Of a DNA stretch of 33,691 nt, positions 5,938 to 28,595 are shown piece after piece. The notes beneath the pieces were generated by a model. That model was not told where the DNA came from, searched no databases, and saw nothing but the letters and a program-made list of their open reading frames with translations. The stretch is from a bacterium. GTDB lineage: Bacteria; Actinomycetota; Acidimicrobiia; Acidimicrobiales; CATQHL01. The DNA lies in the NCBI GenBank assembly GCA_026708055.1, contig JAPOVS010000044.1:1-33691 (forward strand), in the 5' to 3' direction. A program made the translations under genes and the position numbers. How positions within the stretch are numbered: position 1 is the stretch's first letter; every line of letters starts with the position of its first letter.

Positions 5938-6633
5938 ATGATCGAGTTGGATCAGGTCACCAAGATTTACAAGGGCGAGGTCCTGGCGCTGTACAGCGTC
6001 TCCTGCAAGGTCAGCAAGGGCGAGTTCGTCTTCCTGGTGGGCCCGTCGGGTTCGGGCAAGTCCACGTTCCTCAAGCTCCTGAACCGCCAGGAGACCGCCG
6101 ACCAGGGCTCGGTGTGGATCGCCGGCAAGGAGGTCGGCGCGCTGCCCCGGTCCAGCGTCCCGAAGCTGCGCCGGCTGGTGGGCTGCATCTTCCAGGACTT
6201 CAAGCTGCTGCCCAACAGGACCGTGTACGAGAACGTGGCGTTCGCGCTCGAGGTCACCGGGCGTTCCCGCCAGCAGGTCCGCACCCAGGTTCCGTCGCTG
6301 CTGGAGTTGGTGGGGCTCTCCAAGAAGACGCACAGCTATCCGCATGAACTCTCCGGCGGCGAGCAGCAGCGCGTCTCCATCGCCCGGGCGTTCGTGAATC
6401 GCCCGCCGATCCTCCTGGCCGACGAGCCGACCGGGAACCTCGACGGCGACACCTCCAACGGGATCATGCGCCTGCTCGCCGAGATCAACAAGCGGGGCAC
6501 CACCGTCGTGATGGCCACCCACGACCAGCACATCGTGAACGCGGCGCGCCGCCGCGTGCTGCGGTTGGACCGGGGCCGGCTCATCGGCGACGAGGCCCGG
6601 GGCCGCTACACCGCCCAGGGCCGCTACACCTAG
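5938..6633 (+). CDS. ftsE: Cell division ATP-binding protein FtsE
   Basis: ATPase partner of FtsX, which at the division site controls periplasmic peptidoglycan hydrolases. The protein is 231 residues, the usual size. Visible motifs are Walker [10 protein letters not shown] (35-43), Q-loop FQDFKLLPN (85-93), signature LSGGEQQR (138-145), Walker [13 protein letters not shown] (158-169) and His195. The [15 protein letters not shown] segment is characteristic of FtsE as opposed to LolD/MacB-type ATPases. The C-terminus carries a short duplicated [10 protein letters not shown] tail. It is followed by ftsX after a 9-bp gap, which confirms the identity. Many actinobacteria have prfB upstream and smpB downstream; neither is present here. 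Confidence 0.95.
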
Positions 6634-6642
6634 GAACGCACT

Positions 6643-7536
6643 TTGGCCATCTCCCTCGGCTACGTCTTCCGCGAGACGCGGGGCAACCTGCGCTGGAACG
6701 TCACCCTGTTCGCAGCCACGATCGTTGCCGTCTGGGTGTCGCTGACCCTGTTCGGCTCGTCGCTGTTGATCCGCGAGGGTGTCGAGCAGGCCACCGGGCG
6801 CTGGCGGGGCGGCATCGAGTTCATCGTGTTCATGAACGCCGATGCCAGCGAGGCCCAGCACGCCGCCATCCGGGGAGCCCTCGACGAGAACCCCGAGATC
6901 AGCGGCTACGACTACGTCGACCAGCAGGGCGCCTTCAACGAGTTCATCACCGAGTTCGCCGACCGTCCCGAGCTGATCGAGAACGTCACGCCGGAGATCC
7001 TGCCGCCCTCCTACCGGGTGAAACCCAGCGTCGGGGACGCGGATGTGATCGAGGCCCTGGCGGCGCAGTTCGACGCCCGGCCCGGTGTGCGGCAGGTGAC
7101 GCTGCCCGTAGAGGTGATCCGCACCCTCCAGCAGAACAGCCAGAAGGTCAGCGTGTTCGTGCTGATCATCGCCATCGTCGTGCTGCTGGCCGCGTTGATG
7201 CTGATCGCCAACACCATCCGCACCGCCATCTTCGCCCGCCGCCAGGACATCGAGGTGATGAAGCTCGTGGGTGCCTCCAACTGGTACGTGCGATTGCCCT
7301 TCATGGTGGAGGGCACCATCCAGGGGCTGATTGGCGGGGCGCTGGCGATCCCGATGCTGTTCCTCATGAACAACCTCATGGCCGGGTTCGTGCAGGACGA
7401 CTACCTGGAGCTGCTGCGCTCGCTGGTGGTCGACAGCGCCGTGGTGTGGAACACCTCGCTGCTCGTGACCGGGATCGGTGCGGCGGTGGGCGTGGTCGGC
7501 TCGCTGTTCGCCGTGGGGCGCTTCCTCGACGTCTAG
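6643..7536 (+). CDS. ftsX: Cell division protein FtsX
   Basis: Membrane partner of FtsE, 297 residues. It starts at TTG 6643, with AGGA (within the end of ftsE) about 7 nt upstream. One transmembrane helix lies near residues 22-45, followed by an extracytoplasmic domain of about 120 residues (the hydrolase-contact domain). Three further helices follow: one centred on VFVLIIAIVVLLAALML, one on GLIGGALAIPMLFLM and one at the C-terminus. The motif ARRQDIEVMKLVGASNWYVRLPFMVEG after TM2 (shown here only as a landmark, residues about 204-228) is the classic FtsX cytoplasmic loop. Co-transcription with ftsE is near certain. Confidence 0.95.
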   Translation: MAISLGYVFRETRGNLRWNVTLFAATIVAVWVSLTLFGSSLLIREGVEQATGRWRGGIEFIVFMNADASEAQHAAIRGALDENPEISGYDYVDQQGAFNEFITEFADRPELIENVTPEILPPSYRVKPSVGDADVIEALAAQFDARPGVRQVTLPVEVIRTLQQNSQKVSVFVLIIAIVVLLAALMLIANTIRTAIFARRQDIEVMKLVGASNWYVRLPFMVEGTIQGLIGGALAIPMLFLMNNLMAGFVQDDYLELLRSLVVDSAVVWNTSLLVTGIGAAVGVVGSLFAVGRFLDV

Positions 7537-7619: not shown

Positions 7620-8708
7620 ATGGTGCAGAGCGTGCGAGGCGTGATCAGCCGGTCGAAGGGCGCGCCGGTCGAGATGGAGACGATCCTGGTGCCTGACCCG
7701 GGGCCCGGCGAGGCTCTCGTGGCGATCCAGGCTTGCGGGGTGTGTCACACCGATCTGCACTACCGCGAGGGCGCCATCAACGACGACTTCCCGTTCCTGC
7801 TGGGCCACGAGGCCGCCGGGATCGTCGAGGCGGTCGGGCCGGGCGTCGACGAGGTGGCGCCCGGCGACTTCGTGATCATCAACTGGCGGGCCGTCTGCGG
7901 GCAGTGCCGATCCTGTGCGCGCGGGCGCTCCCAGTACTGCTTCGCCACCCACAACGCCAGCCAGCCGATGACGCTCACCGACGGCACCAAGCTGTCGCCC
8001 GCATTGGGCATCGGGGCGTTCGTGGAGAAGACGCTCGTCGCCGCCGGACAGGCCACGAAGGTGTCGCCTGAGGCCAGCCCCGAGGCCGCCGGGCTGCTGG
8101 GCTGCGGCGTAATGGCCGGCCTGGGCGCGGCCATGAACACCGGCGGTGTGGGCCGGGGCGACTCGGTGGCCGTGTTCGGTTGCGGGGGCGTGGGCGACGC
8201 CGCCATCGAGGGCGCCCGCCTGGCGGGCGCCTCGACGATCATCGCGGTGGACATCGACGACCGCAAGCTGGAATGGGCACGCCAGTTCGGCGCCACGCAC
8301 ACGATCAACAGCCGCGAGACCGACCCGGTGGAGGGCATCAAGGCGCTCACCGGCGGCAACGGCGTGGACGTCGCCGTTGAGGCGATCGGCCTGCCGGAGA
8401 CCTACCGGCAGTGCTTCGAGGCTCGCGACCTCGCCGGCACCGTCGTGCTCGTGGGCGTGCCGAACCCCACCGCCACCATCGAGTTGCCGTTCATCGAGGT
8501 GTTCGGCCGGGGTGGGGCGCTGAAGTCGTCCTGGTACGGGGATTGCCTGCCGAGTCGCGACTTCCCGATGCTGATCGACCTCTACCTGCAGGGCCGGCTG
8601 AACCTGGACGGCTTCGTCAGCGAGACCATCGCCATCGACGAGGTGGAGGAGGCCTTCCACAAGATGGAGCGCGGCGAGGTGCTGCGGTCCGTCGTCGTCA
8701 TGGACTGA
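7620..8708 (+). CDS. mscR: S-(hydroxymethyl)mycothiol dehydrogenase
   Basis: Zinc-dependent medium-chain dehydrogenase, 362 residues. It oxidises the formaldehyde-mycothiol adduct (also nitrosomycothiol) with NAD, a formaldehyde and nitrosative-stress detoxification step. The ATG at 7620 is preceded by GGAGGGAGG. Catalytic zinc residues are in CGVCHTD (Cys42) and GHEAAG (His63). Structural zinc Cys residues are at 93, 96, 99 and 107. The nucleotide-binding glycine motif is [11 protein letters not shown]. The segments [41 protein letters not shown] and [10 protein letters not shown] are diagnostic of the mycothiol subgroup rather than the glutathione class III enzymes. Its presence implies that the host makes mycothiol. 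It stands alone between ftsX and the CoA-dependent cluster, 37 bp before the CoA-transferase. Confidence 0.93.
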
Positions 8709-8745: not shown

Positions 8746-9942
8746 GTGCGGATGAGTTCCCCGTCGCGGCCCCTCGAGGGAGTCCGGGTTCTTGAGTTGG
8801 GCGCACTCGTGGCGGCCCCCTACTGCGGGATGCTGCTCGCCGATCTGGGTGCCGACGTCATCAAGATCGAGCCGCCGGAGGGGGACATGGCGCGGCACTT
8901 CGCGCCGTTCGTGGCGGGGGAGAGCGCCTTCTTCATGTCCGTCAACCGCCGCAAGCGGAGTGTCGTCCTGGATCTCAAGCAACCCGAAGCGGTGTCCTGG
9001 GTGCATGAGCTGGTCAAGAGGACCGATGTGGTTCTGCACAACTACCGGACCGGCGTCGCCGAACGCATCGGCGTCGGCTACGAGGAGCTCGCCGCTCTCA
9101 ACGCCGGGCTGGTCTACTGCGCCATCTCAGGCTTCGGACCGACCGGTCCGATGGCGCACCGCCCCGCCATCGATCTGCTGTTCCAGGCCGAGTCCGGGAT
9201 GATGGCGATCACCGGCGAGCGGGACGGCTCGCCGGTGAAGGTCGGCACGAACGCCGCGGATGTCTACGCCGCCACCACGGCGGCGGCCTGCGTCAACGCC
9301 GCGTTGGCGAGCAGGGCCCGCAGCGGGCTCGGCGTGCGCGTCGACGTCTCGTTGAGGGACGCGTTCCTGGCGCTGCAGGCCTGTTGGTTCACGAGTTTCC
9401 TCGCCACCGGCGAGCAGTCCGAACGACTCGGTGCCGGGTCCCCGTTCACCGCCCCGACCGATGTCTTCCCGACGATGGACGATTGCATCGTCCTGGCTGT
9501 CGTCAACAGCAAGCACTGGCGGATCCTCTGCGGCGTTCTGGGCCTCGACCACCTCGTCGACGACCGCCGCTTCGGTGACAACGAGGCGCGGGTGGCGAAC
9601 GCCTCGGAGATCCGCGAGATCGTCTCGGAGGTGCTTGCCAGGCGCACGACGGAGCAGTGGATCGAGATGTTCGATGAAGCCGGGATTCCGGCGGGACGGG
9701 TTTACGACTACCGGCAGGTCGCCGCCGATGAGCAGATCCGTCACAATGCGATGGTGCTCGGTTTCGATCACCCGACTGCCGGCACGGTGATGACGCAGGG
9801 GGTTCCGTTCTGGCTGGACGGCGAGAAGAACCCGGATCCCGCACCGCCACCGACGCTCGGCCAGCACACGCGCGAGGTGCTGATCGAGTCGGGATGCTCG
9901 GCGGAGGTGGCCGACAATCTCGCCGGTGTTTGCAGGGCCTAG
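8746..9942 (+). CDS. CaiB/BaiF family III CoA-transferase
   Basis: Moves CoA between carboxylic acids through a mixed-anhydride mechanism. The protein has 398 residues from GTG 8746; an ATG two codons later (8752) is equally possible and no strong ribosome site separates them. Family features are the N-terminal PLEGVRVLELG, the CoA-binding region around LADLGADVIKIEPPEGD, and NRRKRSVVLDLK (about 67-78). The expected catalytic Asp is Asp172 in GTNAADVYAAT. The length is normal. It opens a plus-strand cluster, with the BadI-like gene 19 bp downstream, so it likely activates the acid or recycles CoA in that pathway. The exact substrate cannot be read from sequence. Confidence 0.88.
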   Translation: MRMSSPSRPLEGVRVLELGALVAAPYCGMLLADLGADVIKIEPPEGDMARHFAPFVAGESAFFMSVNRRKRSVVLDLKQPEAVSWVHELVKRTDVVLHNYRTGVAERIGVGYEELAALNAGLVYCAISGFGPTGPMAHRPAIDLLFQAESGMMAITGERDGSPVKVGTNAADVYAATTAAACVNAALASRARSGLGVRVDVSLRDAFLALQACWFTSFLATGEQSERLGAGSPFTAPTDVFPTMDDCIVLAVVNSKHWRILCGVLGLDHLVDDRRFGDNEARVANASEIREIVSEVLARRTTEQWIEMFDEAGIPAGRVYDYRQVAADEQIRHNAMVLGFDHPTAGTVMTQGVPFWLDGEKNPDPAPPPTLGQHTREVLIESGCSAEVADNLAGVCRA

Positions 9943-9961
9943 CGCAGAAGGAGCAATCGAG

Positions 9962-10756
9962 TTGACACAAGGTCAACTGCACGACGTTCTCTACGAAGTG
10001 GATGACGGGTTGGCGTGGATCACGATCAACCGGCCCGAGCGGCTCAACGCGTTTCGAGGGCGCACGATCGATGAACTCATCCACTGCTTCAAGCAGGCGT
10101 GGGGCGACCCCGCCGTCGGTGTCGTCGCGCTCACGGGTGCGGGCGAGCGGGCCTTCTGCGTCGGCGGGGACCAGAAGCAGCGTCTCGAGAGCGGCGACTA
10201 CGGGCCGAGCGAGTACGGCGTCTTCCAGGACGAGTACCTGCAACGCCTGATCCGGGACATCCCCAAGCCGGTGATCGCCGCGGTGAACGGGTACGCCATC
10301 GGTGGTGGCCAGGTACTGCACGTCGTGTGCGATCTGTCCATCGCGGCCGACCATGCCGTCTTCGGTCAGGCCGGGCCCCGGGTCGGCTCGTTCGACGCCG
10401 GGTTCGGAACGGCCTACCTGGCGCGCCACGTCGGCGTTCGTCGTGCCCGCGAGATCTGGTACCTGTGCCGGCGCTACAGCGCCGAGGTGATGCTCGAGTG
10501 GGGCCTCGTCAATGCGGTGGTGCCCATGTCCGAGCTGCGTGACGAGGTTCGCAGTTGGGCCGACGAGATGCTCGCCCTCTCTCCGGCGGCGCTCAAGTTC
10601 GTCAAGCACTCCTTCAACGCGGACACCGAGTCGATCGCGGGCATCTCGGCGGTCGCTTTCGACGGTCTGGCGGTGTTCGTGGACTCCGAGGAGGCTCAGG
10701 AGGGGGTCAGGGCCTTCAACGAGAAGCGCGATCCCGACTTCGGCCAGTTCCGTTGA
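9962..10756 (+). CDS. BadI-like ring-cleaving crotonase (2-ketocyclohexanecarboxyl-CoA hydrolase type)
   Basis: Crotonase-fold enzyme of 264 residues. The start is TTG 9962 because AGAAGGAG lies 8 nt upstream; a longer frame from 9926 would overlap the CoA-transferase. Oxyanion-hole segments are AFCVGGDQ (65-71) and GYAIGGGQVLH (110-120). The block GQAGPRVGSFDAGFGTAYLA (135-154) with Asp145, and REIWYLCRRYS after it, match the BadI/MenB subgroup. BadI opens an alicyclic 2-keto ring hydrolytically, while MenB closes one in menaquinone synthesis. The FRGRTIDELI and GGDQ segments and the catabolic neighbours favour BadI, and no men genes are nearby. An alternative is the EchA20-type hydrolase of steroid C/D-ring catabolism, which does similar chemistry. 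Confidence 0.82.
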   Translation: MTQGQLHDVLYEVDDGLAWITINRPERLNAFRGRTIDELIHCFKQAWGDPAVGVVALTGAGERAFCVGGDQKQRLESGDYGPSEYGVFQDEYLQRLIRDIPKPVIAAVNGYAIGGGQVLHVVCDLSIAADHAVFGQAGPRVGSFDAGFGTAYLARHVGVRRAREIWYLCRRYSAEVMLEWGLVNAVVPMSELRDEVRSWADEMLALSPAALKFVKHSFNADTESIAGISAVAFDGLAVFVDSEEAQEGVRAFNEKRDPDFGQFR

Positions 10757-10842
10757 GAGCCATCCAGATCCTCGGGCGGGCGGTGGCTGCCGAGTTGCCG
10801 ACGATCGGCCTGTCCGGCGAGGTTCGAGAGTCGGTGTGACGA

Positions 10843-12168
10843 GTGGTGCCGGACGTCTACGACGAGATCGAGGTGCTGCCACGCTCTCAACTCGAGGCGT
10901 TGCATCAGGAACTCTTCGCCGAACAGCTCGGCTACGTGATGGCGCACTCGGCGTTCTACCGGCGGAAGTTCGGCGCCACGGCCAAGAGCATCAGCTCGCT
11001 CGATCAACTGGTCGACCTGCCGTTCACCTCGAAGGACGAGGTGCGGGAGAGCCTTCTCGCACGGCCGCCGCTGGGCCTGCACGCGGCCGCGCCACTGGAG
11101 TCGGTCGTGCAGATCCAATCCTCGTCGGGCACGACCGGCATGCCGACCTTCGTCGGTGCGACCGCCGAGGACATCGAGACCTGGAACTCGATGGGTGCGC
11201 GGGTGTTCTACGCGAACGGGTTCCGGCCGCACGACTGGGTCATGCACGCCTACGCCATGGGTCGGGGTTTCGTGGGCGGGCTCGTGAACGTCGAGCACCT
11301 GCAGCACCTGGGCTGCTGCGTGATACCCCTGGGGGCGGAGGCCGGTACCGAGCGGCTGCTGCGCGCCATCGAGCACCTGCAGCCGGTGGCGATGTGCGGC
11401 ACACCGTCGATGGTGTTGCATCTCGGCGCCGCCGCGCCCGATGTCCTCGGCAAACCGGCGAGCGAGCTCTCGGTCCGGAAGATCTCCGTGGGTGGCGAGC
11501 CCGGCGCCGGCGAGCCCGCCATCCGTGCGCAGATGGAGGCGCTCTGGGCAGCCGACGTGCGCGACATGATGGGTGGCGCGGACTTCGGGAGCACGTACTG
11601 GGCGGAGTGCGACCGCAAGGACGGGATGCACCTCTGCTCGCAGGGTGCCCTGCACGTCGAGATCATCGATCCGGCGACGCTCGCGTCGCTCCCCATCGAG
11701 GAGGGCACGACCGGCGAGCTTGTCTACACCACGTTGGCTCGGCGTGCCACGCCGCTGATCCGCTACCGGATGGGCGACCTGGTGACGATCACGGCGCTGG
11801 GCTGCACGTGTGGCCGGACCGGCTATCGCATCAAGGCGCACGGCCGCACCGACGACATGCTGATCGTCCGCGGCGTCAACGTGTTCCCTGCGGCCATCAA
11901 GGAGGTGGTGGTGGCGATGCGGCCCCGAACCACGGGCTACTTGAAGATCGACATCGACTTCCCGGGCCACAGCACCCCTGACCCTCTGAGGCTGCGCGTC
12001 GAGGTGGCGGGGCGGAACATCGGCGCGTTCCCGATCCTGGCGGCCGAGATCGAGCAGCGGATCCAGAGCATGCTGTCGGTCAGGACGATCGTGTCCCTGG
12101 TGCCCGACGGTGCCATCGAGCGACCGGGAGTGCAGAAGGAGAAGCTGGTGGAGCGCGATGGCGGCTGA
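10843..12168 (+). CDS. Phenylacetate-CoA ligase family acyl-CoA ligase (PaaK-like)
   Basis: Adenylate-forming enzyme that activates an aromatic or cyclic acid to its CoA thioester, 441 residues from GTG 10843 (GTG 10846 is an alternative). Seen in the sequence: the P-loop-like SSSGTTGMPT at 93-102, an MMGGADFGSTYW region corresponding to the usual (Y/F)G(M/S)TE area, IRYRMGDLV, the GCTCGRTGYRI cysteine segment, and the hinge RTDDMLIVRGVNVFP, all typical of PaaK. The length matches PaaK (about 430-440). It lies 86 bp after the BadI-like gene and 15 bp before the SDR-like gene. The substrate is unlikely to be simply phenylacetate because no other paa genes are present; a cyclic acid feeding the BadI-like step is inferred. 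Confidence 0.87.
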   Translation: MVPDVYDEIEVLPRSQLEALHQELFAEQLGYVMAHSAFYRRKFGATAKSISSLDQLVDLPFTSKDEVRESLLARPPLGLHAAAPLESVVQIQSSSGTTGMPTFVGATAEDIETWNSMGARVFYANGFRPHDWVMHAYAMGRGFVGGLVNVEHLQHLGCCVIPLGAEAGTERLLRAIEHLQPVAMCGTPSMVLHLGAAAPDVLGKPASELSVRKISVGGEPGAGEPAIRAQMEALWAADVRDMMGGADFGSTYWAECDRKDGMHLCSQGALHVEIIDPATLASLPIEEGTTGELVYTTLARRATPLIRYRMGDLVTITALGCTCGRTGYRIKAHGRTDDMLIVRGVNVFPAAIKEVVVAMRPRTTGYLKIDIDFPGHSTPDPLRLRVEVAGRNIGAFPILAAEIEQRIQSMLSVRTIVSLVPDGAIERPGVQKEKLVERDGG

Positions 12169-12183
12169 GGGCGGGGGACCGGC

Positions 12184-12624
12184 ATGAGCGTTCTGCTGCT
12201 GGACGACTCGACCGGCTGGCTCGGCGAGATCCTGTCCGACGGCGCCTCCGAGGGAACCGTGCTCGCCGCCTGCGACCCGCCTGCTGACTGGTCCGCCGTG
12301 GAGGAGCGACTCGTCGACGCCTTCCACGCCGCACGCGAGTGCGTGGCGCAGGGGGCGCCGCTCGTCTACATCGTGCACTCCGAGGACCTGCGTGGCACGA
12401 GGTCGGCCCTGGCGAGCGCGCTCGCCACCGCACTGATCGGCTGCGCCAGGGCGGTGGCGTACGAATTCCAGCGTGATGGAGCCGCGGCGAACGTCGTGGC
12501 GCTGCCGACCGACGCGGATCGTCCGGGTGCGGCACGGGTCATCGGGAACCTGCTGGCGGACCCGGTGCTCACCGGCGAGCTGCTGGACCTCGGGAGCGCC
12601 AAGCTGGGAAAGCTCCAGCCGTGA
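12184..12624 (+). CDS. Short degenerate SDR-like protein, possible non-catalytic partner subunit
   Basis: 146 residues, starting at ATG 12184 with GGGGGA upstream. The C-terminal half follows the SDR pattern: a strand PLVYIVHS, a helix where YxxxK should be, ALIGCARAVAYEFQRDG, then a strand ANVVALP. The catalytic Tyr and Lys are absent and there is no TGxxxGxG nucleotide motif; most of the N-terminal Rossmann half is missing. The stop overlaps the start of the next gene, a complete SDR, by 4 bp (GTGA), implying coupled translation. A known precedent is BbsCD of benzylsuccinate oxidation, where a catalytic SDR pairs with an SDR-fold subunit lacking the active site. The function here is inferred, and a decayed gene is the alternative. 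Confidence 0.6.
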   Translation: MSVLLLDDSTGWLGEILSDGASEGTVLAACDPPADWSAVEERLVDAFHAARECVAQGAPLVYIVHSEDLRGTRSALASALATALIGCARAVAYEFQRDGAAANVVALPTDADRPGAARVIGNLLADPVLTGELLDLGSAKLGKLQP

Positions 12625-13322
12625 GCCTGTCCATCGTCACCGGCGCCGCTCGCGGGATCGGCCTCGAGATCGCCCGTCGCCTGGCGGCCGACGGCCATGC
12701 GCTTCTGCTCGTCGACGTCGCGCCGGCCGTGGAGGCCGCGGCGGCTGATCTCGGGGCCCGTTCGGCCTGCGCCGACGTGACGGAGCCGTCAGGCCTCGAG
12801 GCCATTGCCGCGATGGTCAAGGACGGGGGCGAGGCGGTTCGGTCGATCGTCAACAACGCCGGGATCACGCGTGATGCACGTCTCACGAAGATGGCCGAGT
12901 CGGACTTCCGCGCCGTGCTGCGGGTCAACCTCGGCGCTGCCTACGCGCTGGTCGATCGACTGCGCGGCGAACTGATCGACGGCAGTTCGATCGTCTCGAT
13001 GAGCTCCCGCGCCTACCTCGGCACCTTCGGGCAGATCAACTACGTCGCATCCAAGGCCGGATTGGTGGGCTTGACGCGTGCCCTGGCCCTTGAGTTCGCC
13101 CCCCGGACGCGGGTCAACGCCGTCGCCCCCGGCTTCACGGACACGGAGATGACGAGGGCGGTGCCCGAAGCCGTTCGGGACCGGATCGTGCCGGCGATAC
13201 CCATGAAGCGAGCCGGCGAGCCGCCCGAGATCGCAGAAGTCGTCGCCTTCCTCACGTCGCCGGCGGCCTCGTACGTCACCGGCCAGGTCGTGTTCGCCTG
13301 CGGCGGGCGCGGCATCGTGTGA
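12621..13322 (+). CDS. Short-chain dehydrogenase/reductase (FabG/BadH-like)
   Basis: NAD(P)-dependent alcohol/ketone oxidoreductase, 233 residues from GTG 12621. It has the nucleotide motif TGAARGIG (7-14), NNAGI, the catalytic Ser in SMSSRAYLG, the YVASK pair and the NAVAPGFTDTEM segment, so it appears fully active. It is slightly short for the family (about 245-260). In a cyclohexanecarboxylate-like pathway it would fill the BadH role, oxidising a 2-hydroxy ring acyl-CoA to the 2-keto form that the BadI-like enzyme then opens. That role is inferred from the cluster. The overlap with the degenerate SDR gene suggests a heteromeric enzyme. Confidence 0.88.
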   Translation: MSLSIVTGAARGIGLEIARRLAADGHALLLVDVAPAVEAAAADLGARSACADVTEPSGLEAIAAMVKDGGEAVRSIVNNAGITRDARLTKMAESDFRAVLRVNLGAAYALVDRLRGELIDGSSIVSMSSRAYLGTFGQINYVASKAGLVGLTRALALEFAPRTRVNAVAPGFTDTEMTRAVPEAVRDRIVPAIPMKRAGEPPEIAEVVAFLTSPAASYVTGQVVFACGGRGIV

Positions 13323-13420
13323 CTCCCGGGACGGCTCGATGACCCGGCAGGTCAACGACGTGTGCAGCGGGGCCGCAAAGTAGGGTGGCTCGAGGGATCA
13401 GGCGCACAGGGGGTGCAGGT

Positions 13421-14332
13421 ATGACCTCGATCGTTCGGTTCGTCGACTCGGATGCCGGGGTGGCTCGGCCTGGAGTGCTGGATGACGATGGGGTTCATCC
13501 GATCGAGAGTGTCGACACGCTCGCGGCGTTGCTGCACCACTCGGCGGCTGAGATTCGTGAGCAGATCGTGGCTGCGGCCGGGAATGCGCCGGTCGCGGGC
13601 GTGCCCCGGTTGTTGAGCCCGATCGACGGGGACACGCCGGTCTGGGGGGCCGGGGTCACCTACCGGGTCTCGCAGGAGGCCCGCATCGAGGAGAGCGGGG
13701 ACGAGGACGTCTACATCCGGGTCTACAACGCCGAGCGTCCCGAACTGTTCCTGAAGTGTGTCGCCCACGAGGTCGTCACCGACGGTGAGCCGGTCGGGCG
13801 GCGTCCGGACTCCGACAACGACACGCCCGAACCCGAGTTGGCCCTCATGATCAACGTCGACGGCGAGATCGTCGCCTACGGCGCGTGCAACGACATGTGC
13901 GCCCGGGCCATCGAGGGCGAGAACCCCCTCTACATCCCGCAGGCCAAGATCTTCGCCGCCTCCTGCGTGCTGGCGCCCACCATGCGCCCCTCCTGGGAGG
14001 TGCCCGACGCCTACGACCTCACGATCCGGCTGCGGCTCAGCCGCGGCGCCGACGTCCTGTTCCGCGGGTCCACCTCCACCTCGGAGCTGGCCCGCACGCT
14101 CGAGGAGTTGGTGGAGTGCCTGTTCTGCGCCACGGCGTTCCCCGACGGGGTGGTGCTGTCCACCGGCACCTGCCTGGTGCCGCCGCTGGAGTGCCCCAGC
14201 GAGGTGGGCGACATCATCGAGATCGCCATCGACGACATCGGCAGCATGCGCAACGTCGTCACCTCCACCGACGACATCAAGGGTTGGCTGCACCGCCGCC
14301 ACGCCGACCCGCTGACGCCGTACGAGGCCTGA
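13421..14332 (+). CDS. Fumarylacetoacetase-fold hydrolase/dehydratase
   Basis: 303 residues from ATG 13421, which has AGGGGG about 9 nt upstream; an earlier in-frame GTG at 13385 lacks one. Features are GAGVTYRVSQEARIEES (77-92), the metal-binding PEPEL (Glu137, Glu139) and GNDMCARAIEGENPLYIPQAK region with Asp158 (listed as a landmark, 156-176), and SCVLAPT. This is the FAH superfamily branch that includes 2-dehydro-3-deoxy-D-arabinonate dehydratase and related 2-keto acid enzymes, acting with Mg or Mn. It lies 98 bp after the SDR gene on the same strand, so it may belong to the cluster or be transcribed alone. The exact reaction is not determinable. Confidence 0.85.
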   Translation: MTSIVRFVDSDAGVARPGVLDDDGVHPIESVDTLAALLHHSAAEIREQIVAAAGNAPVAGVPRLLSPIDGDTPVWGAGVTYRVSQEARIEESGDEDVYIRVYNAERPELFLKCVAHEVVTDGEPVGRRPDSDNDTPEPELALMINVDGEIVAYGACNDMCARAIEGENPLYIPQAKIFAASCVLAPTMRPSWEVPDAYDLTIRLRLSRGADVLFRGSTSTSELARTLEELVECLFCATAFPDGVVLSTGTCLVPPLECPSEVGDIIEIAIDDIGSMRNVVTSTDDIKGWLHRRHADPLTPYEA

Positions 14333-15178: not shown

Positions 15179-15895
15179 CTATGCGAACTGGCCGACGATG
15201 AGGGCCACGCCGCCGGCGAGGGCCACGGTCAGCACCGCAGGGCGGAACCAGGTGCGGTCGAGGAACGGCCGCACCAGCCGCGAGACGGCGAGGCCGATGA
15301 ACATTCCCGGGGCCAGGTAGCCGATCAGCTTGAGTTCGTGGAGACCGAAGTTGCCGCGCACCGCCAGCAAGGCGATGCCCGCGCCGCCGACCACACCGAT
15401 GTAGGCCGAAGAGGTCGAGCGCAGCACCGGCGGGCGCATCTCGCTGAAGCAGATCCCCAGGGGCGCACCGGGCAGCGCCGCGGCGATGGCTCCGAAACTG
15501 CACGTCAGCCCGCCGGCGACCTCGGTGCGGCGGGTCTGCCGCAGGCGGAATCCCGCCAGCAGGATCAGCGCCGAGCCGGCGACCAGAGCCCCGATCAGAA
15601 TTGTCCGGGTCGTCTCGGGCACGAGCTCCAGGACCGCGAAGCCGGCCGCCAGGCCGACCGGGAGTCCCCAGAGCGCGTGCTTCACCGCCCGCCAGTCGAT
15701 GTGCCTGCCCTCCACGATGATGTGCCGTATGCCGATGATCTGCCCCACGATGAGAAGCGGTCCGGGGATGAACGCGGGGTCGATGGCGACGAGGGCCGGG
15801 GCGGCCACCAGCGACAGCCCCACGCCCACAGAGCCCTGCACGATGGCGCCGCCCGCCACCGCGGCGATGGCGAGGACCAACTCGACGGCGCTCAA
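15179..15895 (-). CDS. TauE/SafE family membrane permease
   Basis: 238 residues with about seven hydrophobic segments. The N-terminal half contains GGAIVQGSVGVGLSLVAAP, and a second half has GAIAAALPGAPLGICF, the two glycine/proline-rich repeats of the TauE/SafE family. The family exports sulfite, sulfoacetate or other small organic anions, or takes up such compounds. TTG 15895 overlaps the Rieske gene stop by 4 bp (TTGA), so the two are translationally coupled. It is last in the molybdenum hydroxylase operon, suggesting it moves a substrate or product of that enzyme. The direction of transport and the substrate are unknown. Confidence 0.82.
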   Translation of the reverse strand: MSAVELVLAIAAVAGGAIVQGSVGVGLSLVAAPALVAIDPAFIPGPLLIVGQIIGIRHIIVEGRHIDWRAVKHALWGLPVGLAAGFAVLELVPETTRTILIGALVAGSALILLAGFRLRQTRRTEVAGGLTCSFGAIAAALPGAPLGICFSEMRPPVLRSTSSAYIGVVGGAGIALLAVRGNFGLHELKLIGYLAPGMFIGLAVSRLVRPFLDRTWFRPAVLTVALAGGVALIVGQFA

Positions 15896-16275
15896 GGGTC
15901 GCGCCTTGGGCGACGCCGCACCCGGATCTCCCCGGCCACCTCCTGGCAGGGATGGACCTCGATGTCACCCTTGCGGTCACGGCGGCCGTCGAGGTTCTCC
16001 TTCCAGCCGCTCCCGTCGGTGGCGAAGGTCCAGAAGTGCGTGAGGCAGACGATCTCCTCGCCGGCCACGGCCCCGGAGTCACCGAGGTGCGACCACTGGT
16101 GCGGGCAGCGTGCCTCCATCACGCACGGAACCCCGCTCTCGGTGCGCCACACCACCACGTCGGTGTCGTCGAGGATCGCCTCGACGACACCGCCGGGAGC
16201 AACCGCTCCGGCTGAGGTGATCGCCACCCAGTCGCCCGCGGCGGGGGGACCGGCGTCCGGGCCGGAGCCGTCCAA
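15892..16275 (-). CDS. Rieske [2Fe-2S] ferredoxin-like protein
   Basis: 127-residue soluble protein with one Rieske cluster site: CPH at the first half, then 17 residues, then CLTH (the CxH...CxxH pattern). GDWVAI near residue 14 and the strand-rich flanks match the small Rieske ferredoxins that feed electrons to or from oxygenases and hydroxylases. The start is TTG 16275; no better start is visible. It sits 27 bp after the molybdenum subunit and overlaps the TauE-like gene by 4 bp. It may therefore act as electron acceptor for the hydroxylase; that is inference, because such enzymes usually pass electrons through their own 2Fe-2S and FAD subunits. Confidence 0.85.
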   Translation of the reverse strand: MDGSGPDAGPPAAGDWVAITSAGAVAPGGVVEAILDDTDVVVWRTESGVPCVMEARCPHQWSHLGDSGAVAGEEIVCLTHFWTFATDGSGWKENLDGRRDRKGDIEVHPCQEVAGEIRVRRRPRRDP

Positions 16276-16302
16276 GATGCTTACCGGGTCACCCGCTGCT
16301 GT

Positions 16303-18723
16303 TCAGCTGTTGGCGGCGTCGACCATCCCGACAATGCGCTCGGGGGTGGCGGGTAGGCGGCGGATGCGGATGCCGAGGGCGTCGTCGATGGCGGCGCAGA
16401 TGGCGGAGGGTGCCATCATGCGTCCCGCCTCGCCGCCGCCCTTGATGCCGTAGGGGGTGTAGGGGCTGGGTGTCTCGTTGTGGCCCACCCGCAGCGTCGG
16501 CGAGTCCAGCGCGGAGGGGATGAGGTATTCGGCGAAGGAGGGTGTGCGCAGCACGCCGTCCTCGTCATAGAGGAACTCCTCGTACAGGGTGCTGCCGAGG
16601 CCCTGCACGGTGCCGCCGATGACCTGGCCGCCGACCGAGCGCGGGTTCACGACGGTGCCGCAGTCGTGCACGGCGGCGTAGTCCAGGAACTCCACGCGCC
16701 CCGTTTCGGGATCCACCTCCACAACCACGACGTGGCTGGCGTGGCCGACGAAGGGGTAGAAGACCCCCAGGTTGGTGCGCTCGGGGTTGGGCATGGTGGT
16801 GTAGGGGTGGTCCTGGACGTGGCTGGCCTCGAGGCCGGTTTCGATCTCCTCGGGCAGGGAGTGTTTGAACATGTGGGCGGCCAGGGCGATCTCGGCGAGC
16901 TCCTTGCGCTGGTCGGGGCTGCCGCGCACCGCGAAGCCGCCCTCCTCCCAGACGAGGTCGTCCTCGTTGGCCTCCAGCAGGTGGGCGGCGATCTTGGCGG
17001 CCTTGGCCCGGATGCTCTGGGACGCACCCTCCACCGCGCCGCCCACCATGATCGTGAAGCGGCTGCCGCCCGGCCCGGTGGCCGGCATGCCCTGATTCGA
17101 GCCGGCGTAGACCACCGAGACGTCCTCGGGCTTGATGCCCAACTCCTCGGCCACGAACTGCGCCACCATCGTCTCGGGGCTGTTGCCCCAGGAGGCGTTG
17201 GAGTACAGCGTGGCGGTCACCGCGCCCATGGCGTCCACCTTCAGGGTGACGCTCTCGGGGGCGCTGGTGACGGGGGCGGCGACCGGCTCGTCGAACCAGA
17301 ACCAGAATTCGGTGGCGCTGAACACGCTGCGCTCCTGGCAGGTGCACACGCCGATGCCGACGTGGCGGCCCTCGGCGCGCATCTCGGCCTGCCGCTTGCG
17401 CCAGCCCTTGTAGTCGGAGAGTTCCATGGTCTTGTTCAGCACGGCTTCGTAGTCGCCGCTGTCGTAGACGTTGCCGGTGGGGATGAAGTAGGGGAACTGG
17501 TCGGGCTGGATGAAGTTCATCCGCCTGATGTCCACCGGATCCATGCCCAACTCGAGGGCCATGAGATCCACCATGCGCTCCAGGATCCAGTTGCCCACCT
17601 CGGAGCCGAAGCCCCGGTAGGCGCCCTGCTGGCACTTGTTCGTGAGGACCGCGGTGAGGTCGTATCCGATGCTGCTCATGCGGTACGGGCCGACGGCCTG
17701 GGCGAGGGAGTTGCCGTGCTGGCCCACGCCGAACTGGATGTAGGCGCCGTAGTTGTCCACCACCTTGTAGCGGGTGCTCAGCAGCGTGCCGTCGGCCTTG
17801 GCGGCCAGCTCCACCTCGTAGTAGCGGTCCGAGCCGTGGTGGTCGCCGTTGGCGATGTTGTCCAGGCGGTCCTGCATGAACTTCACCGGCCGCCCGGTGA
17901 TGCGGGCCATCATCGCCGCGATGGTGGCGGTCTTGACCTCGAAGAACTTGGCCCCGAAGCTGCCGCCGGAGGGGTGGGGTTGCAGATCCAGCTTGTTGCT
18001 CGGCACCCGCAGGGTGTTGGCCAGCAGGAAGAGGAAATGCGTGAACGACATGGAATTCACGTGGATGGTCATCATCCCCGTGGCGGCGTCGTAGTCGGCG
18101 ACCGCCCCGACGGTCTCCAGCGGCTGGCCGCCTGAGCGCCCCCAGTGCAGGGTGTCCCGCACGATCACGTCCGCGGCGGCGAAGTCGCCGTCCACGTCAC
18201 CGAAGGTGAACTTGCGGTGGAACGGGATGTTGGAGCCCAGTGCCTCGTGGATGAGCGGCGCGTCCTCCTCCAGCGCTTCGAGCATGTCGGTGAGCGGCTC
18301 GAGCGGCTCGTAGGTCACCTCGATGAGTTCGGCGGCGTCCTCGGCGACGGCACGGGAGGTGGCGGCCACGACGGCCACGCCCTCGCCCATGTAGCGCACC
18401 TTGTCGACCGCCAGGCAGTACCAGGTGTGCTTGTCGGGCGAGGGCCCGAAGTCGGGCATGGGATTGACGTGGTCCGTGACGTTCTCGCTGGTGACGATGG
18501 CCACCACGCCCGGAACGGCTTCGGCGGCGGAGGTGTCGATGCTGAGGATCTTGGCGTGGGCCATGGTGCTGCGCGCCACGGCCACCTCCAGCATGTTCGG
18601 CACCTCGTAGTCGTCGATGTAGTTGCCGCGGCCGCGCAGGAACTTCGGGTCCTCGACCCGTGGGATCGACTTGCCGACCCACTCCAGGTGCTCGGGGTGC
18701 TGGCGAACCTTCGGGATGGTCAT
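16303..18723 (-). CDS. Molybdenum hydroxylase large subunit (xanthine dehydrogenase/CoxL family)
   Basis: Catalytic subunit holding molybdopterin cytosine dinucleotide, 806 residues. The ATG at 18723 is 1 nt after the small-subunit stop and has AGGAGG upstream; an in-frame start at 18741 would overlap. Seen: GKSIPRVEDPKFLRGRG at the N-terminus, the Mo-pocket GGSFGAKF (253-260), AYRGFGS at 368-374, and KGGGEAG with the catalytic Glu765. Form I CO dehydrogenase carries AYRCSFR at the second position, so this is not a true CO dehydrogenase. It belongs with the AYRGxG-type aldehyde, purine or N-heterocycle hydroxylases. Operon order is medium, small, large, as in cox-type loci. The substrate is unknown. 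Confidence 0.92.
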   Translation of the reverse strand: MTIPKVRQHPEHLEWVGKSIPRVEDPKFLRGRGNYIDDYEVPNMLEVAVARSTMAHAKILSIDTSAAEAVPGVVAIVTSENVTDHVNPMPDFGPSPDKHTWYCLAVDKVRYMGEGVAVVAATSRAVAEDAAELIEVTYEPLEPLTDMLEALEEDAPLIHEALGSNIPFHRKFTFGDVDGDFAAADVIVRDTLHWGRSGGQPLETVGAVADYDAATGMMTIHVNSMSFTHFLFLLANTLRVPSNKLDLQPHPSGGSFGAKFFEVKTATIAAMMARITGRPVKFMQDRLDNIANGDHHGSDRYYEVELAAKADGTLLSTRYKVVDNYGAYIQFGVGQHGNSLAQAVGPYRMSSIGYDLTAVLTNKCQQGAYRGFGSEVGNWILERMVDLMALELGMDPVDIRRMNFIQPDQFPYFIPTGNVYDSGDYEAVLNKTMELSDYKGWRKRQAEMRAEGRHVGIGVCTCQERSVFSATEFWFWFDEPVAAPVTSAPESVTLKVDAMGAVTATLYSNASWGNSPETMVAQFVAEELGIKPEDVSVVYAGSNQGMPATGPGGSRFTIMVGGAVEGASQSIRAKAAKIAAHLLEANEDDLVWEEGGFAVRGSPDQRKELAEIALAAHMFKHSLPEEIETGLEASHVQDHPYTTMPNPERTNLGVFYPFVGHASHVVVVEVDPETGRVEFLDYAAVHDCGTVVNPRSVGGQVIGGTVQGLGSTLYEEFLYDEDGVLRTPSFAEYLIPSALDSPTLRVGHNETPSPYTPYGIKGGGEAGRMMAPSAICAAIDDALGIRIRRLPATPERIVGMVDAANS

Positions 18724-18724
18724 G

Positions 18725-19207
18725 TCAGTCCTCCTCGGCACGCATCTCGGCCGCGGCGTCCAGCACCGCGTCGACGATGTACTGGTAACCGGTGCAGCGG
18801 CACATGTTGCTGGAGATGCCCTCGCGGGCCTCCTCGGCGCTCAGGTCGGGGTTGTTGTTGATCAATTCCAGGCTGCGCAGCAGCATCCCGGGTGTGCAGA
18901 ACCCGCACTGCAATCCTTGGTGGCGCCGGAACGCCTCCTGGAGGGGGTGCATCTCGGCGCCGGGGGCGAGGCTCTCGACGGTCTGGATGTCGGCGCCGTC
19001 CGCCTGCACCGCGAACATGATGCAGGACCGCACGCTGCGGCCGGCGATCAGCACCGTGCACGCCCCGCAGGCGCCCTGCTCGCAACCGATGTGTGTGCCC
19101 ACCAGACCCAGGTCGTGGCGCAGGAAGTCCGCCAGGCTGCGGCGCGCCTCCACGCCGGCCGACGTCGCCGTGCCGTTGATGGTCACAGTGATGTCGTGAG
19201 TGTTCAT
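18725..19207 (-). CDS. Molybdenum hydroxylase small subunit, 2x[2Fe-2S]
   Basis: 160-residue electron-transfer subunit. It carries a plant-ferredoxin-type cluster (CEQGACGACTV, Cys42/47/50, plus Cys62) and the second helical cluster (CGFCTPG, Cys101/104, and CRCTGY, Cys136/138). All eight ligands are present. The ATG at 19207 overlaps the FAD-subunit stop by 4 bp (ATGA). It passes electrons from the Mo centre to the FAD subunit. The length is normal (about 155-165). Confidence 0.96.
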   Translation of the reverse strand: MNTHDITVTINGTATSAGVEARRSLADFLRHDLGLVGTHIGCEQGACGACTVLIAGRSVRSCIMFAVQADGADIQTVESLAPGAEMHPLQEAFRRHQGLQCGFCTPGMLLRSLELINNNPDLSAEEAREGISSNMCRCTGYQYIVDAVLDAAAEMRAEED

Positions 19208-20076
19208 GCCTCACCTCCTGCCCGCTCGGCGGCCGCTGTGAGTGCCCGCCGGGTGAGAACCCGCGCCAGCTTCTTGCGATAGGCCCCCGAACCGAACGAG
19301 TCCGACAGGGGCTCGACACCCGAGGCGGCGGACTCCGCCGCGGCGGCGAACACATCCGCGTCCGGCTCCGCCCCCACCAGGATCGCCTCGGCCTCGGGCC
19401 GGCGCAGCGGCACTTCCGCCACCCCGCCCAACACCACCGAGGCCCGATCGATGGTGCCGCCGCTCGTGTGGACCAGCACTGCGGCGAGCGCGATCGGCCA
19501 ACTCTCCGCGGTCACGCTGAACTCCAAGAACCCGTGACCTGTGCCCGCCGGCCAGGCGTCCACCGTCACGGCGGTGACCAACTCGCCCTCCTCCAGGGCC
19601 GTCGTGAAGTAGCCCTCGAAGAAATCCTCCGAGGCGATCTCGCGGGTGCCGCCGGCGCCCTGAGCGGTGACGGTGCCGCCCTGCGCCTTGAACGCCGCGG
19701 GCAGCTCGGCGCTCGGATCGGCATGGGCGATGCTGCCCACCACCGTGCCCTGGTGGCGCACCGGCACCTGCCCGGCGTTGGCGATCGCGTCGGCCAGCAC
19801 CGGCGCCACCGCCAGCGTGTCGGCGTGCAACTCCACGGCCCGCTGGCGGGCGCCCGCACCCACGTGCAGGCCGCCGCCGTTGGCGCCGCAGCCGGCCAGA
19901 TCCGGCGCACGGGTGATGTCCACCAGGTGGCCCGGTGCCGCCAATCGCAGATTCATCAACGGGATCAGACTCTGACCCCCCGCCAGGATCCGGGCATCGA
20001 ACCCCAACTCACCCAACAGAGCGGCGGCCTCGGCGCCCGACGCCGCCCGGTGATACTCGAAAGGTGGCGACTTCAT
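19204..20076 (-). CDS. Molybdenum hydroxylase FAD-binding medium subunit
   Basis: 290 residues, ATG 20076 with GAGGGG upstream. FAD-binding motifs are AGGQSLIPLMNLR (about 32-44) and GTVVGSIAHADPSAELP (the TIGGSxAHADPAAE pattern). The usual CoxM-type C-terminal domain follows, with a VVLGGVAEVPLR segment. It is first in the operon; a perfect 7-bp inverted repeat lies just upstream and may control it. Confidence 0.94.
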   Translation of the reverse strand: MKSPPFEYHRAASGAEAAALLGELGFDARILAGGQSLIPLMNLRLAAPGHLVDITRAPDLAGCGANGGGLHVGAGARQRAVELHADTLAVAPVLADAIANAGQVPVRHQGTVVGSIAHADPSAELPAAFKAQGGTVTAQGAGGTREIASEDFFEGYFTTALEEGELVTAVTVDAWPAGTGHGFLEFSVTAESWPIALAAVLVHTSGGTIDRASVVLGGVAEVPLRRPEAEAILVGAEPDADVFAAAAESAASGVEPLSDSFGSGAYRKKLARVLTRRALTAAAERAGGEA

Positions 20077-20472: not shown

Positions 20473-22002
20473 TCAATGGCCCGGCGGGCTGGGGAACCCG
20501 CCGACCAGCGACTCGTAGGTCTTGGCCGCCGCCAGCGCGGTCGTCTCGTCCCAGTAGCGGGCCACGAAGCTCATCCCCACCGGGAGCCCGTCGCTGAGGC
20601 CCGCCGGCACGTTGACGACCGGGTGCCCGGTGACCGAGCACGGCAGGGTGTTCGGCACCATCTCCAGCGCCCTCGCCACGTAGTCGGCGATCGAGCAGTC
20701 CTCGGGGGGCAAGGCGGTGGGCATCATCGGAAGCGTCGGGTAGCAGAGCACATCGCAGCTCTCCAGAGCCCTGTCGTACGCCTCGTTGATCAGCGGACGC
20801 AGGTTCTGCGCCTTGGCGTAGCTGGACCCTCCGTGCAGGTTCAGCATGTACTGCCCGAACAGGGCCACGTACTTGACGGAGTGGGAGACCGCGTCGCCGT
20901 GGCGTCGCCAACCCGCCGCGAAAGCCTCCATGATCTCGGGGTTGTACCGGCCGCGGTGGTTCAGGCCGTAGCCGTTGCCGCGCAGCATCTGCCAGGCTCC
21001 TCCCTCGGTTGCGATCACGCTCCAGACCGCCGGTGCCCAGGCGTGCTCGGGAAGGGTTATCTCCCGCACCTCGGCGCCGGCCGTCTCCAGGCGTGCCAGA
21101 GCACCGCGCACCGTATCGTCCACCGCCGCGTCGCTGATCGGGTGGCCGAATCCTTCGGTCACCACGCCGATGCGCAGGCTCGCTGGCTCTCGGTCAAGTC
21201 CCGCGGTGTAGTCCACCCCCGACGGTGCCGACAATTGGCGTTGGTCCGCCCCGTCGGGTCCGGCAATGGCCGTCAGCAGCAGCGCCGCGTCATCGACGGT
21301 GCGAGCGACCGGTCCGAGATGGTCGAACGTGTACTCGATGGGGAAGGCCCCCGTATATGGCACGAGGCCGTAGCTGGCTTTGATCCCGACGATGCCCGAC
21401 CAGCAGCTGGGGATCCGCACCGAGCCCCCCTGGTCGCCGGCGATGGCCATGTCCACGTCGCCGGTTGCCACCAGCACGGCACTGCCGCACGACGAGCCGC
21501 CGGCGGAACGGGTGGGATCCCAGGGGTTGCGCACCGGGCCGGTGGCGGCGGTGTGGCTCCCGCCGGAGAAGCACAGGTCCTCGCAGACCGCCTTGCCGGC
21601 GATCTCGCCGCCCGCCTCCAGGATGCGCCGTACCACGCTGGCGTCGCTGCGGGGCACGAACCCCTCCAGGGTGGCCGAGCCGTTCATCATCGGCACGCCC
21701 GCCACGTCGACGTTGTCCTTGATGGCGATTCGCTTGCCTGCCAGGAGGCCCTCGTCGCGCTCGCGCACGGCGCAGCGCCGGTACCACGCACCGAGGGGGT
21801 TGTCGGCGGGCTCGGGTTGCCAGGAGTGGCGCTCGGGCACCGCCGGCGTCTGCTGCTGGTAGAGGTCCTCCACGGCGTCGTAGGCCGCCAGCGCGCCCAC
21901 CACCAGCTCCCGGTAGGCGGCCAGGTCGTCCTCGCTCGGCGACAATCCGAAGCCGGCGGCGATTGCCCCCAACTCGTCGGTGCTCGGAACCGGTACCCCC
22001 AT
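20473..22002 (-). CDS. Amidase-signature family amidase (nitrile-pathway type)
   Basis: Hydrolyses amides to acid and ammonia, 509 residues, ATG 22002. The Ser-cisSer-Lys triad is visible: Lys95 in IAIKDNV, cis-Ser171 in AGGSSCGSA and nucleophile Ser194 in GGSVRIPS. The N-terminal 80-residue helical domain plus LEGFVPRSDASVV, AVCEDLCFSGGSH and GLVPYTGAFPIE match the Rhodococcus-type enantioselective amidases that follow nitrile hydratase, rather than GatA. No nitrile hydratase genes are in the window, so the substrate is open. The gene stands alone. Its 5' end faces a sulfatase remnant on the other strand, with a REP-like palindrome between them. Confidence 0.93.
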   Translation of the reverse strand: MGVPVPSTDELGAIAAGFGLSPSEDDLAAYRELVVGALAAYDAVEDLYQQQTPAVPERHSWQPEPADNPLGAWYRRCAVRERDEGLLAGKRIAIKDNVDVAGVPMMNGSATLEGFVPRSDASVVRRILEAGGEIAGKAVCEDLCFSGGSHTAATGPVRNPWDPTRSAGGSSCGSAVLVATGDVDMAIAGDQGGSVRIPSCWSGIVGIKASYGLVPYTGAFPIEYTFDHLGPVARTVDDAALLLTAIAGPDGADQRQLSAPSGVDYTAGLDREPASLRIGVVTEGFGHPISDAAVDDTVRGALARLETAGAEVREITLPEHAWAPAVWSVIATEGGAWQMLRGNGYGLNHRGRYNPEIMEAFAAGWRRHGDAVSHSVKYVALFGQYMLNLHGGSSYAKAQNLRPLINEAYDRALESCDVLCYPTLPMMPTALPPEDCSIADYVARALEMVPNTLPCSVTGHPVVNVPAGLSDGLPVGMSFVARYWDETTALAAAKTYESLVGGFPSPPGH

Positions 22003-28508: not shown

Positions 28509-28595
28509 CAGCAGCTCGTTGGTATCGTGTCAGGCCATGAGTCGGAAGAACTGGCCGATGTTATTGGAGTGGACACAGGAAGAGCGGAGTGCGTC

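Follow-up and report, generated by a model that had tools for sequence, protein, structure and literature searches.

We analyzed a stretch of 33,691 nucleotides (the window), contig JAPOVS010000044.1 of assembly GCA_026708055.1, from an uncultured member of the Acidimicrobiales whose genome (G000) comprises 3.9 Mb in 87 contigs. The minus strand of the window carries five co-directional genes in which a sequence-only reading had recognized a molybdenum (Mo) hydroxylase together with a Rieske protein and a TauE/SafE permease, and the cluster proved to be real and correctly placed. In the direction of transcription, these encode the flavin adenine dinucleotide (FAD) subunit M of the hydroxylase (19204..20076, 290 amino acids, aa; FAD_binding_5, PF00941, 135.5 bits, and CO_deh_flav_C, PF03450, 72 bits), its small subunit S with two [2Fe-2S] clusters (18725..19207, 160 aa; Fer2_2, PF01799, 95.4 bits, and Fer2, PF00111, 34.4 bits), its large subunit L, which holds the Mo cofactor (16303..18741, 812 aa as called; Ald_Xan_dh_C, PF01315, MoCoBD_1, PF02738, and MoCoBD_2, PF20256), a stand-alone Rieske [2Fe-2S] ferredoxin (15892..16275, 127 aa; PF00355, 47.8 bits), and a permease of the TauE/SafE family (TauE; 15179..15895, 238 aa; PF01925, 60.8 bits against a cut-off of 32.6). 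The domains named in the five proteins all score above their Pfam cut-offs, and the M-S-L order recurs in relatives; locus identifiers such as L009 or L146 are distinct from L, the large subunit gene. Since the Rieske gene appears to be the older resident of an ftsX locus, the apparent five-gene machine looks like mostly a neighborhood effect.

The claim that overlapping genes tie the cluster together held in part, as an ATGA overlap joins M to S and a TTGA overlap joins the Rieske gene to TauE, whereas a 27-base gap separates L from the Rieske gene. L probably starts at an internal ATG at about 18723 rather than at its called start, and in that case the S/L junction would read TGA-C-ATG, with the two genes one base apart. 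Co-translation of the Rieske protein and TauE is likely, because their genes overlap.

With MoCoBD_1 and MoCoBD_2 in L, Fer2 and Fer2_2 in S, and FAD_binding_5 in M, M-S-L is by its domain content a Mo hydroxylase of the xanthine oxidase (XO) family, and hydroxylation is its predicted activity. The AYRGFGS motif noticed earlier was confirmed in L from residue 374; WGNSPET begins at residue 518, and the catalytic glutamate lies in GGGEAG at 768, aligned with the GIGE, GMGE, GLGE, or GVGE of solved relatives. Because L, M, and S together have all the redox domains that such enzymes normally contain, an additional electron carrier would in principle be dispensable, and we found nothing showing the non-standard electron route that the sequence-only reading had suggested. 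A MoCoBD_1 search of the G000 genome gave 17 matches, of which 15 have E < 1e-60, so the presence of one more Mo hydroxylase is unsurprising by itself.

The Rieske protein has both ligand pairs, Cys57/His59 and Cys77/His80, in the arrangement CxH...CxxH of its translation, and it is the only Rieske match in G000 at E up to 0.001. A search of the genome collection with this protein yielded 27 loci. Six of these belong to the window's family, represented here by nine genomes including its own (G000 to G008, with G008 representing a sister genus): L009-L013 from the genus and L014 from G008 are the same contigs as those of G003, G002, G006, G004, G007, and G008, respectively, and are not independent evidence. 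The other 21 loci (L015-L035) are mostly from Acidimicrobiales, Acidimicrobiaceae, Candidatus Microthrix, or Actinomycetota, with one Actinomyces sp., and several are closely related to one another. In all 21, ftsX directly precedes the Rieske gene; a methyltransferase gene with an Rv2258c-like domain directly follows it in 20 (L015-L034; in L018, for example, the pair of genes spans 9971-11434), and secA-prfB-ftsE lies upstream wherever the contig reaches. None of these 21 stretches has a match to L, M, or S. Similarly, in five further genomes (G013, G019, G061, G062, and G064), ftsX is no more than about 5.5 kb away from the Rieske gene and the stretch has no hydroxylase match. The window retains these ancestral neighbors on its plus strand, assigned by synteny and by domain (ftsE, 5938..6633, ABC_tran; ftsX, 6643..7536, PF18075 and PF02687), at about 8 kb from the Rieske gene, and an S-(hydroxymethyl)mycothiol dehydrogenase gene (7620..8708, plus strand; TIGR03451, 664.7 bits against a cut-off of 512.9) at about 7 kb. 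What looks like an intermediate arrangement occurs in G064, in which ftsX is followed by a dehydrogenase 85% identical to the mycothiol dehydrogenase of the window, an MBL-fold protein, and then an inverted Rieske gene. On a plain reading of these gene orders, the Rieske gene, an orthologue of the ftsX-linked Rieske gene of other Acidimicrobiia, would have been the resident around which the other genes were added. The case also draws attention to this ferredoxin, whose gene comes right behind ftsX in each of the 21 related loci.

One may ask whether this ferredoxin merely shares a transcript with the hydroxylase while serving an oxygenase encoded elsewhere, the methyltransferase linked to ftsX, or a mycothiol-formaldehyde pathway. 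Its nearest solved chains are toluene 4-monooxygenase ferredoxins (1vm9, 4p1c; best E 1.4e-5), which are likewise stand-alone Rieske domains with CxH...CxxH, although the match is weak (E about 1e-5) and the Rieske gene of the window adjoins a Mo hydroxylase, whereas those of its relatives adjoin ftsX. The methyltransferase that adjoins the Rieske gene in 20 of 21 loci also speaks for such a role, as does the mycothiol dehydrogenase gene, which lies within about 7.5 kb of the Rieske gene on the same contig in 8 of the 13 genomes with a Rieske match above 80 bits (six of the eight being in the window's family). However, no oxygenase was found among the few neighbors scanned, and the window's family keeps the Rieske gene without the methyltransferase, for which the nine genomes gave no strong match and a single partial one (E 7.5e-6, G003). 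We regard this explanation as improbable. A link between such a methyltransferase and mycothiol dehydrogenase is known from mycobacteria; here the two are close together only in G060 among the places listed, and the link was not used in our argument.

Within the family, an orthologous L is present in eight of nine genomes, and the order M-S-L-(L2)-Rieske-TauE was found on one contig in all six genus genomes in which M-S-L to TauE can be read on a single contig (G000, G002, G003, G004, G006, and G007). In G005, one contig breaks off inside L and the one with ftsX inside the mycothiol dehydrogenase gene, while G001, which is 77% complete, has neither an orthologous L nor an ftsX match. The element L2 is a second large subunit, about 35% identical to L and on its own tree branch, which lies between L and the Rieske gene in G002 and G004 (L010:7527-9905 and L012:7548-9923) and persists in G006 as two pieces (L011:6608-7786; residues 16-136 and 503-790); it is not at this place in G000, G003, G007, or G008. 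L2 has no M and S of its own beside it, which suggests that two large subunits shared one M-S pair for a time.

The sister genus is organized differently. In G008, M-S-L is followed by 8.3 kb and only then by the Rieske gene, the gap holding four open reading frames (ORFs) on the same strand (a TGT-domain protein, a UvrD helicase, a PD-(D/E)XK nuclease, and an HTH-M78 protein) together with one or more short ORFs on the opposite strand, and no TauE match was found in this genome at E up to 0.001. A second insert in G008, on the other side, encodes a DNA methylase and an 814-aa protein without a Pfam match (inserts L014:1714-8465 and L014:10938-14367); the inserts are possibly defence genes. 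TauE is 79-99% identical in five further genomes and was found at this place in the genus only. Its next-best relatives, at 51, 48, and 44% identity in G060, G077, and G032, have no recurring neighbor in ORF lists inspected by eye without a domain scan, and no solved relative was found at E up to 1. The search for the same gene order that the sequence-only reading had proposed is thus positive in all six readable genus genomes and negative beyond them, with the order split in the sister genus and absent from five loci outside the family (see below). Its claim that the Rieske and permease genes belong with the hydroxylase does not survive outside the genus, given G008, these five loci, and the 21 ftsX loci.

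L is 80-100% identical across the family, whereas no match listed outside it in the same order (99 genomes, up to ten candidates scored in each) exceeds 41%. Across the phylum (396 genomes drawn, up to two candidates scored in each), the matches listed include one gene 68% identical to L in G215 and one 50% identical in G268, both from one family in another class, and 39 genomes of the order of G215 gave no further full-length match above 41% among those listed. A plasmid search gave 797 matching records, and the 25 listed include relatives of 51.9% identity in Cupriavidus sp. P-10 and in C. basilensis and of 51.3% in Ancylobacter polymorphus, the other 22 being less than 38% identical; further members of the branch may exist beyond the matches listed. 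The two Cupriavidus plasmids encode the same proteins and are treated as a single lineage, so that the five outside loci represent four. The large-subunit phylogeny that had been called for placed L firmly: in a tree of 41 rows, from which the short rows L011_0, L146_3, and L146_2 were left out and in which the others were trimmed to the matched stretch, nine rows form one branch with support of 100/100, and the seven rows of the family nest beside G215. The plasmid sequences entered the alignment only. L belongs to a distinct, well-supported branch of its family, and since members of this branch are found in Cupriavidus and Ancylobacter as well as in two classes of actinobacteria, lateral transfer, in either direction, is the simplest account of its distribution.

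The branch is also recognizable by its residues. Its cofactor segment is WGNSPET (WGNSAET in G007), and the asparagine position is occupied by glutamine in 32, glycine in one, and asparagine in one (L146_2) of the 34 other aligned rows, out of 35, that have letters there; asparagine alone is therefore not diagnostic. W518 was not seen in aligned rows outside the branch, which also has Gln-Gln ahead of the RG loop. In all, the 11 branch rows share 21 invariant columns that, by construction of the test, are unseen in the 35 others where letters exist, the comparison set consisting of best-matching relatives and G000 paralogues rather than Mo hydroxylases at large. This 21-column signature could let the branch be recognized elsewhere. 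Some members of the Mo hydroxylase family add water, and the branch might likewise perform chemistry other than hydroxylation, a suggestion to which the unusual cofactor-segment residues, the 21 diagnostic columns, and the cyclase-family, thiamine pyrophosphate (TPP), and SDR proteins among its neighbors lend some color. Yet the catalytic glutamate is retained in 11 of 11 branch rows, the [2Fe-2S] and FAD subunits expected for an oxidation are kept as well, and we consider such a departure very unlikely.

The five outside loci show which genes accompany L elsewhere. In G215, a TetR-like gene (assigned by eye) and M-S-L are followed by genes for a VOC protein, an FAD monooxygenase, a cyclase-family protein, a TPP enzyme, and an SDR; G268 has a TetR-like gene (also by eye), a cyclase 70% identical to that of G215, a VOC protein, and M-S-L. 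The Cupriavidus locus comprises M-S-L with CoxG, XdhC, AMP-binding, and TPP proteins, and that of Ancylobacter a cyclase, an SDR, M-S-L, and CoxG. With the Rieske protein and TauE of the window as the only queries, at E up to 1e-8, neither had a match in these stretches of 19-30 kb, and neither is annotated near L on the plasmids, for which the gene table is incomplete. In Cupriavidus sp. P-10 and C. basilensis DSM 11853 (L165 and L166), the same cluster is carried by plasmids of about 425 kb, typed as conjugative, and has transposase genes on either side.

From what was observed directly, namely the gene content, the other home of the Rieske gene, the distance between it and L in the sister genus, the lack of it near L elsewhere, and the tree, we propose the following account, which as a whole we consider probable. 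M-S-L would be a self-contained XO-family Mo hydroxylase gained laterally as a catabolic module. It would probably act on an aromatic or N-heteroaromatic compound, oxidizing one of its ring carbons with oxygen taken from water, which is the established source for the Mo hydroxylase family, and electrons would pass from Mo through two 2Fe-2S clusters to FAD and on to an acceptor that may be soluble or a quinone. In the window's family, the module would have arrived at the locus of ftsE-ftsX and come to lie upstream of a Rieske gene presumably already there, and TauE, joined in some species by an amidase and a coenzyme A (CoA)-dependent block, would have been added by stepwise accretion. The Rieske and TauE genes are probably co-transcribed with M-S-L now, yet the enzyme would not require them.

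Several observations weigh against this account. An ftsX or methyltransferase neighbor does not always accompany the Rieske gene, as L035 shows no methyltransferase match over the 824 bases that follow its Rieske match and G059 no ftsX over 13 kb around the Rieske gene. We also considered whether the Rieske gene occurs in genomes that lack any Mo hydroxylase, and this failed: a search with PF02738 found one in 22 of 22 tested genomes with this Rieske gene (the 21 loci and G008), so that only physical linkage is shown to be missing and the Rieske protein could act in trans. G019, with a Rieske homologue of 46% identity, gave no match to L, the L protein itself being the query there. Moreover, L, the Rieske gene, and TauE stay together in six of six readable genus genomes even with L2 in between, which fits a co-opted partner and leaves room for co-option: the resident Rieske protein would have become the electron acceptor of the hydroxylase, TauE would export an anionic product, and the five genes would form one unit in the genus. 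The TTGA overlap, the short gap between L and the Rieske gene, and the lack of a strong match in the nine family genomes to the methyltransferase formerly downstream agree with this. Against it stand the four other lineages that have the hydroxylase without the Rieske or TauE gene, the 8.3-kb separation in G008, where TauE was not found, and the usual redox domains already present in L, M, and S, and we judge a captured partner unlikely. Less likely still is the specific case in which a widespread, ftsX-linked Rieske protein was captured in one genus as the electron outlet of a laterally gained Mo hydroxylase from a branch with an altered cofactor loop; if true, it would represent a natural rewiring of such an enzyme towards ferredoxin chemistry.

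The remaining points against the laterally acquired module that we favor concern its substrate. An aromatic or N-heteroaromatic compound is a tentative guess, somewhat doubtful even to us, and is based on the FAD monooxygenase of G215 (one of five outside loci), the likeness of L to quinoline 2-oxidoreductase, and the amidase beside M. The closest solved chain to that monooxygenase is 2,6-dihydroxypyridine hydroxylase (2vou, 275 bits), but such a gene adjoins L in G215 only, and not in G268, Cupriavidus, or Ancylobacter; the amidase of the window has no match in any of the five outside loci, which leaves the evidence on the substrate thin. Furthermore, among solved relatives L matches a CoxL best (448.4 bits), with quinoline 2-oxidoreductase second (430.3 bits). 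CoxMSL (8uem, 1n5w) has the same domain order as the window's enzyme, although its loop is AYxCSFR, which L lacks. QorMSL (1t3q) shares with L an AYRG-type loop and the catalytic glutamate but has GQGHET in place of GNSPET. The large subunit of 6-hydroxypseudooxynicotine dehydrogenase (7dqx, 387.9 bits) belongs to the same family, yet differs from L in its AYRAPG loop and GQGIET. The 6-hydroxypseudooxynicotine pathway uses 2,6-dihydroxypyridine hydroxylase, a relative of which is the enzyme encoded beside L in G215.

Four named activities were considered and rejected. The cysteine of the AYxCSFR loop binds copper in CO dehydrogenase, and form I CoxL is excluded by the AYRGFGS of L as well as by curated scores under the cut-off (506.9 bits against 950 and 483.7 bits against 991.15 for the two NCBIfam models). 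Glyceraldehyde dehydrogenase, xanthine dehydrogenase, and 4-hydroxybenzoyl-CoA reductase were set aside because L, M, and S score below the cut-offs of all NCBIfam equivalog models listed.

In the literature collection searched, no paper combined a molybdenum hydroxylase, a Rieske protein, and TauE. A study of Nocardioides simplex describes how lumichrome is broken down by enzymes that include a Rieske dioxygenase, a TPP enzyme, and a Mo hydroxylase (PMC12746152). Like the window, that cluster brings together a Mo hydroxylase and a Rieske system, with the TPP enzyme in the same N-heterocycle pathway; there, however, the ferredoxin serves the Rieske dioxygenase and the hydroxylase LumJ is depicted as a 140-kDa protein. 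For sponge symbionts, PMC8941161 reports CoxL-like proteins (COG1529) as abundant, more than half being without a known substrate, at about 12 per genome in Actinobacteria, and a cultivated sponge member of the Acidimicrobiia carries coxL, coxM, and coxS according to PMC12263773. If the window comes from a sponge symbiont, as the isolate names of its relatives suggest, it offers a case in which an M-S-L enzyme module can be separated from mere neighbors among such CoxL-like genes.

The flanking genes illustrate how such a locus may grow. Between the mycothiol dehydrogenase gene and TauE, G007 has an FAH-family gene only, G004 and G006 add a pair of SDR genes, and G002 and the window further add genes for a CoA-transferase, a crotonase, and a PaaK-like ligase; the content of the interval increases from G008 to G007, to G004 and G006, and to G002 and the window. 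In the window, domain scans and synteny define this variable block (8746..14332, plus strand) as a CoA-transferase III, a MenB/BadI-like crotonase, the PaaK-like ligase, an unassigned 146-aa ORF, an SDR, and an FAH-family protein; its CoA-transferase, crotonase, ligase, SDR, and FAH genes look like a putative CoA pathway for ring compounds. In G003, no FAH or SDR match was found in the 2.8 kb after TauE, though its L is about 100% identical to that of the window, and its mycothiol dehydrogenase gene is on another contig, where rearrangement and assembly error are indistinguishable. Upstream of M lies the amidase gene (20473..22002, minus strand; NF005565, 682.3 bits against a cut-off of 545; solved homologue 3a1k, 564.3 bits), which is found beside the cluster in four of the six readable genus genomes. 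It is accompanied by a response regulator and a histidine kinase in G002, G004, and G006, whereas in the window the amidase is present but neither regulator has a match; no amidase lies beside M in G003, checked over 17 kb upstream of M, or in G007. Elsewhere in the window, a 1120-aa ORF at 28527-31889 encodes a protein whose one assigned domain is of fibronectin type III.

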